NCBI GenBank assembly: GCA_022827345.1
Contig: JAJDTB010000035.1
Coordinates: 1 to 64,000, forward strand
Origin: Gemmatimonadota bacterium
GTDB taxonomy: Bacteria; Gemmatimonadota; Gemmatimonadetes; Longimicrobiales; Gaopeijiaceae
Direction: 5' to 3'
Length of the DNA stretch: 64,000 nt
Shown: in pieces, positions 9,761-12,305 of the stretch
Position numbering within the stretch: the first letter of the stretch is position 1
How the letters are laid out: every line of letters starts with the position of its first letter
Translations under genes and position numbers: made by a program
The notes under the pieces: generated by a model
Seen by the model: the letters and a program-made list of their open reading frames with translations, nothing else
The model's database searches: none
Told to the model about the DNA's origin: nothing

Positions 9761-10342
9761 ATGTCGTGGGTCACCGAAATCCCCCGCGAGCAGGCCACGG
9801 GGCTGCTGCGCCGCGAGCTCGACGCCGCGGTCGAGCGGTCCGGCCGGGTGTGGAAGATCGTCCAGGTGATGAGCCTGAACGCCCCCGTGCTCAGGGCCAC
9901 GATGGGCCAGTACGCGGCGATCATGTTCGGGCCCTCGCCGCTCTCCCGGGTCCAGAGGGAGCTGCTCGCGACCGTCGTGTCGGCCGAGGTGGGGTGCTTC
10001 TACTGAACGCAGGCGCACGCGCATGACCTCCGGGCCGAGGTCGAGACAGCGGGAGCAGCCGCCGAAGAGGCAGACGCTCTCATTCACAACATCGTCCGGG
10101 ACTGGAGGACGGCCGGCCTGTCCGATGCGGACAAGGCGCTCTGCGAGTACGCGGCCAAGCTGACCCGCAGCCAGCACGCGATGGAACACGGGGACCTCGA
10201 GCGCCTGCGGCGTGTAGGCCTTGATGATCGCGGCATCCACGATGCGACCCAGGTGATCGGGTTTTTCAACTACATCACGCGGGTGGCGGACGGACTCGGC
10301 GTGGAGCCGGAGGAGTTCATCGAGGAGTGGGGGCGAAGTTAG
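9761..10342 (+). CDS. AhpD/CMD-family peroxidase-related selenoprotein (in-frame TGA = Sec82)
   Basis: Read through one in-frame TGA (10004-10006), the frame gives a 193-residue protein matching the carboxymuconolactone decarboxylase/AhpD-like peroxidase-related family over its whole length, from EIPREQATGLLRREL to the FFNYITRVADGLGVEP end. The family active site is CxxC-xxx-H; here it reads C79-F-Y-U82-T-Q-A-H86, so the TGA replaces the attacking cysteine (AhpD Cys133 equivalent) and the conserved His follows. A perfect 6-bp hairpin starts 19 bases after the TGA. Reading it as a pseudogene would require loss at exactly this residue with no other damage. Sec readout is inferred; sequence features are direct. 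Confidence 0.8.
10004..10042 (+). promoter_or_regulatory. UGA codon and candidate SECIS hairpin of the CMD-like selenoprotein
   Basis: TGA at 10004-10006 followed by a perfect stem GACCTC (10025-10030) / GAGGTC (10037-10042) closing a six-base loop that carries GGG, 26-28 bases after the TGA. Bacterial SECIS elements place a G-containing apical loop roughly 16-37 bases downstream of the UGA, within the coding region, so distance and shape fit. Confidence 0.6.
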
Positions 10343-10711: not shown

Positions 10712-11151
10712 CGCGCGGGCATCGCGGGGCGCACGTGACGGTCGTGATCGCGGCAGCGGTCGTCGGTGGCGGGGTTTTCGCGTTCGCGTGGGCGGACCGG
10801 GCGGCGCGCGCGGTGCCGGAAGCGGCGGCGATCGCGCTCCCGGCGGCGGGCCGGCCGGTGTGGGAAGTCGCGCTGGAGACGCCCGCCGGGACGGCGCGGC
10901 TGGGGCTGGAGGCGGGCGCTGCAGGCGGTGCCGTGCTGCGGGTGTGGCTGCCGCCGGAGCTGGATGCTGCCGAACCCGGCGTGGTGTTGGAGGTGGGGAG
11001 TGCGGCCCCCCGGGTCCTGGGAAGCGTGCGCGCGGGGAGGGCCGCGATCCCGCTTGCGGGGAGCCTGCCGGAAGGGGGGCTCCTGGTGCTGAAGGACCTC
11101 GCGCGGGACATCCGGCTGGGCGAGGCGGCGGTTCCGGGAGGTGGACCATGA
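10708..11151 (+). CDS. Membrane-anchored protein of unknown function
   Basis: A 147-residue protein with an N-terminal hydrophobic helix (about 10-30) and a predicted periplasmic beta-rich domain with no recognised motif. GTG start overlaps the preceding stop (GTGA) and its stop overlaps the next ATG (ATGA). Context ties it to the ferric-reductase/Rieske fusion that follows. Confidence 0.6.
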   Translation: MTRGHRGAHVTVVIAAAVVGGGVFAFAWADRAARAVPEAAAIALPAAGRPVWEVALETPAGTARLGLEAGAAGGAVLRVWLPPELDAAEPGVVLEVGSAAPRVLGSVRAGRAAIPLAGSLPEGGLLVLKDLARDIRLGEAAVPGGGP

Positions 11152-12305
11152 GCCACGTCTACCGGGCGGTGGGGTGGTCGCCCCAGAAGCGGAAGTACGA
11201 CCTCGTGATCGCGGGTTGCATGGTCGTGTATTCGGCGATCTTCGCGGCCGTCACCCTCCTGGTGCAGCCCCATGTGACCGCCGAGACCCTGCTGCTGCGG
11301 GCGATGGGCAGCCTCGCCTTCGTGATGCTGTCGTTCATCCTGCTGGTCGGGCCGCTGGCGCGGATTTCGCCGCGTTTCCTGCCGGTGCTGTACAACCGGC
11401 GGCACCTGGGCGTGGCGACGTTTCTGGTGGCGCTCGTGCACGGCTTCTTCGCGGTCTTCCAGTTCCACTTCCTCGGCGAACTCAACCCCTTCGCGAGCGT
11501 GCTGAGCAGCGACGGGAGCTTCGGCGGCAGCGGGGGCTTCCCGTTCCAGCCGCTCGGCGCGGTGGTGCTCGCCGTGCTCTTCGTGATGGCCGCCACCAGC
11601 CACGATTTCTGGCTCGCCAACCTGACGCCGCGGGTCTGGAAGGCTCTCCACATGACGGTGCATGCGGCCTACGCGGTGCTGCTGGCGCACATCGTGCTGG
11701 GCGCGCTGCAGGGCGAGGGCAAGGCGTACCTGTGGCCGGTGACCGCGGCGGTCGCGGGGACGGTCTTCGCGCTGCACCTGTATACAGGGCTGGCGGAGCG
11801 GCGGCGGGATCGGGGTGGGGGCACTGGCGTGGCGGCGGCTGGGCGGGGGGGCGCGGCAGGCGGCGCTGACGAGCCGGACGGGTATGTGCGCGCCGTAGCC
11901 GTGGCCGAGATACCGGACCTGGAGGGGCGGGTCGTGGTGCTCGGCGACGAGCGGGTCGCCGTATTCCGCAACGGGAACGAGATCTCGTGTGTGTCGAACG
12001 TCTGCCGTCACCAGATGGGGCCGCTCGGCGAGGGGCGGATCATCGACGGCTGCATCACCTGCCCGTGGCACGGGTTCCAGTACGACCCCGTGAACGGATG
12101 CGCGCCCCCGCCCTTCGACGACAGGATCGAGACGTACGACGTCGAGGTGCGGGGCGGCTACGTGTGGGTGAACCCGGTGGCCAACGAGCTGGGAACGGCT
12201 TCGCGGACGGCGCGGCTGCCGGTGGTTGCAGCTGATCCTGGCCCGGCGGACAACGGCGATCCGGCGGGAGGCGGCCCCGCGGCCGGAAAGGACGCAGACC
12301 GATGA
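11148..12305 (+). CDS. Ferric-reductase-like membrane domain fused to a Rieske [2Fe-2S] domain
   Basis: A 385-residue fusion. Residues 1-220 hold about six transmembrane helices of the ferric reductase/MsrQ type, with several intramembrane histidines (for example VHGFFAVF and MTVHAAYAVLLAHI) suited to haem b binding. After a Gly/Ala linker, residues 243-360 form a Rieske domain: Cys286-x-His288 and Cys305-x-x-His308 (CRH and CPWH) ligate the cluster. The organisation implies electron transfer between a membrane haem and a 2Fe-2S cluster. Overlaps both neighbours by four bases. The true partner and direction of electron flow are unknown. Confidence 0.8.
   Translation: MSHVYRAVGWSPQKRKYDLVIAGCMVVYSAIFAAVTLLVQPHVTAETLLLRAMGSLAFVMLSFILLVGPLARISPRFLPVLYNRRHLGVATFLVALVHGFFAVFQFHFLGELNPFASVLSSDGSFGGSGGFPFQPLGAVVLAVLFVMAATSHDFWLANLTPRVWKALHMTVHAAYAVLLAHIVLGALQGEGKAYLWPVTAAVAGTVFALHLYTGLAERRRDRGGGTGVAAAGRGGAAGGADEPDGYVRAVAVAEIPDLEGRVVVLGDERVAVFRNGNEISCVSNVCRHQMGPLGEGRIIDGCITCPWHGFQYDPVNGCAPPPFDDRIETYDVEVRGGYVWVNPVANELGTASRTARLPVVAADPGPADNGDPAGGGPAAGKDADR

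Follow-up and report, generated by a model that had tools for sequence, protein, structure and literature searches.

A predicted AhpD-like CxxU selenoprotein encoded with an in-frame UGA in a Gemmatimonadota genome

The window, a stretch of 64,000 nucleotides of Gemmatimonadota DNA taken at its full length, contains a reading frame on the forward strand that runs from an ATG at 9761 to a TAG stop at 10340-10342 and holds a single TGA. When this codon is read through, a protein of 193 residues is obtained in which the TGA occupies the second residue of a CxxC-x3-H motif (AEVG-C79-F-Y-U82-T-Q-A-H86). Both the coordinates and the CxxU motif given in an earlier note on this DNA were found to be exact upon re-reading of the frame. 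The features of the locus are the following:

9761-10342, + strand: predicted selenoprotein gene, 193 aa, AhpD-like 'peroxidase-related' (TIGR01926)
9959-9961, + strand: Glu67, corresponding to Glu118 of the AhpD relay
9995-9997, + strand: Cys79, first residue of CxxU and putative resolving Cys for Sec82
10004-10006, + strand: predicted Sec-UGA codon, residue 82
10016-10018, + strand: His86, corresponding to His137 of the M. tuberculosis AhpD relay
10025-10042, + strand: predicted bacterial SECIS hairpin, GACCTC - CGGGCC - GAGGTC (arms 10025-10030 and 10037-10042)

A gene annotation ending at the TGA would lose the active-site residue together with over half of the protein.

The readthrough protein scored 121.1 bits with the NCBIfam model TIGR01926 (peroxidase-related enzyme), for which the cut-off is 81.8, and 37.5 bits with Pfam CMD. 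The TIGR01926 match spans residues 3-184, bearing out the similarity on both sides of the TGA that had been noticed earlier, and the same model was matched by 34 of the 34 members of set A3. The canonical AhpD model TIGR00777 was absent from the matches of the protein at E values up to 0.001, and the core domain model TIGR00778 was the sole AhpD model to match it (28.0 vs 27.8 bits). Membership in NF041238 (AhpD_rel_CFYUT) was considered on account of the common CFYUT motif and was rejected, as the score was 68.4 bits against a cut-off of 175 and the match was confined to positions 215-339 of the 357-position model, that is to part of its second half. A search of the whole genome with NF041238 also remained below cut-off.

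AhpD-like selenoproteins have been reported from metagenomes before, as the earlier note stated: 27 AhpD-like CxxU sequences were described from the Sargasso Sea in 2005 (PMC1088965) and 299 sequences of 'AhpD-like 1' from the GOS data in 2008 (PMC2398784). A 2026 review lists an 'AhpD-like protein, TIGR01926, CxxU' with MCB9421940.1 as its example (PMC13188914). The window gene is a further member of this AhpD-like TIGR01926/COG2128 CxxU selenoprotein family, known since 2005, with which it shares the NCBIfam model, Sec as the second motif residue and a SECIS directly downstream. Nothing basic differs from the family; what is particular here is the Gemmatimonadota host and, among the relatives, a deep clade that yielded no Cys form.

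Conservation of the TGA was evaluated with an unbiased search, in which a profile of residues 36-81, leaving out the Sec codon, was run against 84,980 GTDB species, each represented by one genome. All of the 80 best loci carried TGA at the column of residue 82, as did close homologues from the genus and family. These best relatives originated from eight phylum-level groups, namely Gemmatimonadota, Chloroflexota, Planctomycetota, Acidobacteriota, Actinomycetota, SAR324, KSB1 and Zixibacteria. Across 172 relatives the column contained TGA in 157 and TGC in 15 and nothing else. This is the Cys/Sec pairing anticipated in the earlier note, which had named any other residue at this position as evidence to the contrary. 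Among 59 genome relatives, nearly all matches of 60-78% identity had exactly one TGA, in the same column, and stop-free pieces came only from copies interrupted elsewhere. A dead gene or a sequencing error, in which a Cys codon TGC or TGT was turned into TGA, requires a change of one base, and a single genome would not tell such an event from a genuine Sec codon. Its probability is nevertheless negligible, since the TGA recurs in 80 of 80 relatives from many phyla as well as in separately assembled genomes from the genus, and since the frame remains open and conserved for 111 codons past the TGA at 39-79% identity overall.

The sequence following the TGA was compared with the bSECIS model, which specifies a loop of 3-9 nt, an upper stem of 4-16 bp, a G in the first two loop positions within G[G/U], a loop located 16-37 nt after the UGA and an MFE of at most -7.5 kcal/mol (PMC13188914). 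The perfect 6-bp hairpin with a G-rich loop that had been pointed out earlier is present at 10025-10042 and lies within every one of these limits, with a 6-nt loop that contains G[G/U] and starts 24 nt past the UGA; the MFE of the 42 nt that follow the UGA was -13.1 kcal/mol. Hairpins obeying the same rules follow 32 of the 1184 TGA triplets in the window (2.7%), so that a lone hairpin is only mildly unusual. The fold energy of the single sequence was not lower than that of shuffles (z = 0.05), a measure that is uninformative in GC-rich DNA, and no Rfam family was found in the window at gathering thresholds.

In 25 close homologues with distinct sequences, pairing was preserved in 150 of 150 cells and one pair showed 4 compensatory changes; the resulting covariation score was reached by none of 500 shuffles. 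In the compensated pair a change of Val94 to Ile (GTC to ATC) is accompanied by a change of the Asp codon from GAC to GAT, whereby C-G becomes U-A. In a wider set of 84 distinct genes of the clade, all six pairs were kept in 75 and five in 8, at least one pair being missing in nine. Codon usage in the hairpin was constrained as well. Leu90 was encoded by CTC in 84 of 84 genes, whereas CTC accounted for 31.5% of their remaining Leu codons; Arg91 was encoded by CGG or CGT in 84 of 84, compared to 42% of Arg codons elsewhere. The latter choice produces the G[G/U] that the bSECIS model expects in the loop (PMC13188914), and together the two codons indicate that synonymous freedom is taken up by the RNA. 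The case for a functional SECIS is thus a strong one, predicted from conservation of the TGA, the pairing and the codons and not from a lone hairpin; the SECIS prediction that had been proposed as a check agreed with it.

Synthesis of a selenoprotein depends on the Sec machinery, the absence of which from the genome would, according to the earlier note, have spoken against the reading. SelA (508.4 bits), SelB (320.9 bits), SelD (378.3 bits) and tRNA-Sec (76.5 bits, anticodon TCA, UCA in RNA) were all found, so that the host genome has the full four-part bacterial Sec system. SelD has an in-frame TGA of its own, in the context HGAG-U-ACK:

Genome G000, contig C61, 28808-29728, - strand: SelD, predicted selenoprotein (GAG-U-ACK), locus L049

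In order to relate the TGA form to the machinery more widely, 149 genomes of the Gemmatimonadota class were searched for TIGR01926 and SelA. Most of the TIGR01926 matches above cut-off contained one in-frame TGA. SelA was above cut-off in 79 of the 82 genomes whose above-cut-off TIGR01926 match contains TGA; of the three exceptions, G039 and G121 have pieces of SelA at contig ends, and G150, which is 84% complete, has no SelA. SelA was found in none of the 6 Cys-only genomes. The association between the TGA form and SelA gave a Fisher p of 1.6e-7, a value that is only a guide as the genome lists were compiled by hand and the genomes are related. The TIGR01926 proteins of the class thus appear to be mostly selenoproteins, and the Cys-only genomes without SelA represent a clean natural experiment on selenium dependence. 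Over the class as a whole SelA was above cut-off in 116 of the 149 genomes, making Sec machinery common in this group.

That the UGA is a true stop, or encodes another amino acid through reassignment or a suppressor tRNA, was considered against these results. An open frame downstream cannot by itself name the amino acid inserted. TGA is however the usual stop of most neighbouring genes, ending 7 of the 10 that were checked, which argues that the code is not reassigned. Furthermore, the UGA stands opposite Cys codons in relatives, the SECIS covaries and the TGA form follows SelA. This explanation is extremely unlikely, and residue 82 is almost certainly selenocysteine, as predicted from comparative sequence data.

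The relation between Sec and Cys forms was further investigated with a tree built by a quick method; the root is arbitrary and the direction of Sec/Cys change is therefore not given by it. The tree held two Sec clades, one with 76 rows (support 100) and the window protein deep inside it, the other with 39 rows (support 93), besides a Cys clade with 10 rows and a support of 85. On this tree 3 changes accounted for the Sec label, as compared to 14.5 in shuffles. The Sec clade of the window protein is deep and is without a Cys form among the 80 best genomic relatives.

A second AhpD-like Sec paralogue, roughly 42% identical to the window protein, is encoded in the same genome:

Genome G000, contig C9, 315216-315683, - strand: second AhpD-like Sec paralogue (predicted), locus L052

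The hairpin of the paralogue clade reads ACGGRG - CGGGN - CTCCGY, with a distance of 16 nt from the UGA to the loop start, 8 nt shorter than in the window gene. Its six pairs were kept in 34 of 41 genes and five were kept in 6. Conserved CTC-CGN codons form the end of the 5' arm and the start of the loop in the window clade, and the 3' arm in the paralogue clade. Two Sec clades that place their hairpins differently around one Leu-Arg codon pair would constitute a small case of a SECIS moving inside a coding sequence.

An AlphaFold2 model of the protein was built from an alignment of 69 sequences. The predicted fold is all-helical (pLDDT 97.3) and was closest to the TIGR01926-type Cys proteins 2PRR, 2OYO, 6K40, 2PFX and 3C1L, with Z scores of 24.6-25.1, rmsd of 1.8-2.1 Å and 21-31% identity. 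These structures share the whole-length fold and the CxxC-x3-H site but have Cys where the window protein has Sec82. Lower scores were obtained for the debrominase Bmp8 (Z 20.1), sestrin (12-15) and M. tuberculosis AhpD (11.2).

The proton relay of M. tuberculosis AhpD is made up of Glu118, Cys130, His132, Cys133 and His137 (PMC3141380). In AhpD structures 1GU9 and 1KNC these residues map to Glu67, Cys79, Tyr81, Sec82 and His86 of the window protein, respectively, although the helix hairpin is located elsewhere in the chain and identity is only about 13%. His132 is replaced by Tyr81, a Tyr being present also in the weak peroxidase PA0269 of P. aeruginosa. The five-residue relay Glu/Cys/His-or-Tyr/Cys(Sec)/His is thereby present: E67, C79, Y81, position 82 and H86 are invariant in the 69 aligned sequences, and Glu67 precedes the second Cys/Sec by 15 residues, as in AhpD.

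The AhpD mechanism papers reportedly assign attack on the peroxide to the second Cys. In M. tuberculosis AhpD this residue, Cys133, is exposed, and it reacts with and reduces AhpC (PMC6626918). In B. thailandensis AhpD, on the other hand, the first Cys was the more important of the two (PMC6626918), and the catalytic Cys of sestrin is the first one (PMC4674687), because of which homology does not settle the attacking residue. The best mechanism, which we infer by analogy to AhpD, has Sec82 attacking and Cys79 resolving. SelB and Sec-tRNA would bind the hairpin located just 3' of the UGA at 10004, placing selenocysteine at residue 82 in lieu of a stop, and the Glu/His relay would keep Sec82 as the selenolate. 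Sec82 may then attack either a peroxide or the disulfide of an oxidised peroxiredoxin partner, upon which Cys79 would resolve the Sec82 intermediate to a selenylsulfide that a cellular dithiol would reduce. A role in reducing hydroperoxides or a peroxiredoxin is probable from the likeness to AhpD. Taken as a whole, we consider it likely that the locus encodes a single 193-residue AhpD-like 'peroxidase-related' selenoprotein in which the UGA is Sec82 and which carries out peroxide or disulfide chemistry.

Two narrower functions were weighed against this reading. The protein could mainly recycle a partner peroxiredoxin, acting as an AhpC adaptor in the manner of M. tuberculosis AhpD, which reduces AhpC via Cys133, the position of Sec82 (PMC6626918). 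As no ahpC neighbour was observed among the scanned window genes or at the inspected cross-phylum loci, and as the fold is nearer to TIGR01926 structures than to M. tuberculosis AhpD (Z 25 vs 11), a dedicated adaptor is rather unlikely. A Sec-based reductive dehalogenase similar to Bmp8 would agree with the overall fold, which the Bmp8 structures 6OHI and 6OHJ share with the model, and with the near relatives seeming, from the names of their records, to be associated with sponges, where brominated compounds abound. Sec also suits dehalogenation, as in the deiodinases. Identity to Bmp8 is however 14%, compared to about 31% to peroxidase-related proteins, and record titles place the clade in lake and groundwater bacteria too, which argues against a halide chemistry specific to sponges. 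Dehalogenation is not indicated here and such an activity appears highly improbable. It is likewise very doubtful that the Sec-fixed clade constitutes a distinct enzyme with a selenium-requiring reaction beyond the reach of Cys, for instance dehalogenation of the Bmp8 or deiodinase type, in place of a faster AhpD-like peroxidase.

The favoured reading, a peroxidase-related selenoprotein, was also viewed in its genomic context. Neighbours within the genus included an M29-like peptidase, a beta-barrel protein, a Ferric_reduct-Rieske protein, two acyltransferases and a hydrolase-VTT protein, in an arrangement that varies. Across phyla no conserved redox-partner neighbour was seen in loci inspected by eye. 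Since the arrangement varies in the genus and the cross-phylum neighbours look unrelated, no operon partner is claimed. Close downstream in the window, at 11148-12305, a gene encodes a ferric-reductase-like transmembrane domain fused to a Rieske [2Fe-2S] domain; this fusion gene lies beside the selenoprotein gene in locus L084 as well, but not in most relatives.

Two homologues were found to contain insertions. The homologue of genome G021 (OX639991.1, locus L034, approximately 284-1500) had been considered a broken copy; this was rejected, as it is instead interrupted, beyond approximately residue 40, by a mobile element of about 1.2 kb. The inserted DNA has an opposite-strand ORF that, judged by eye, reads like an IS110-family transposase, and the Sec codon and SECIS downstream of the insertion are intact. 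In the homologue of genome G030 (locus L038) an acidic, Gly-rich insert of roughly 30 residues is located just past the stretch coding for the SECIS.
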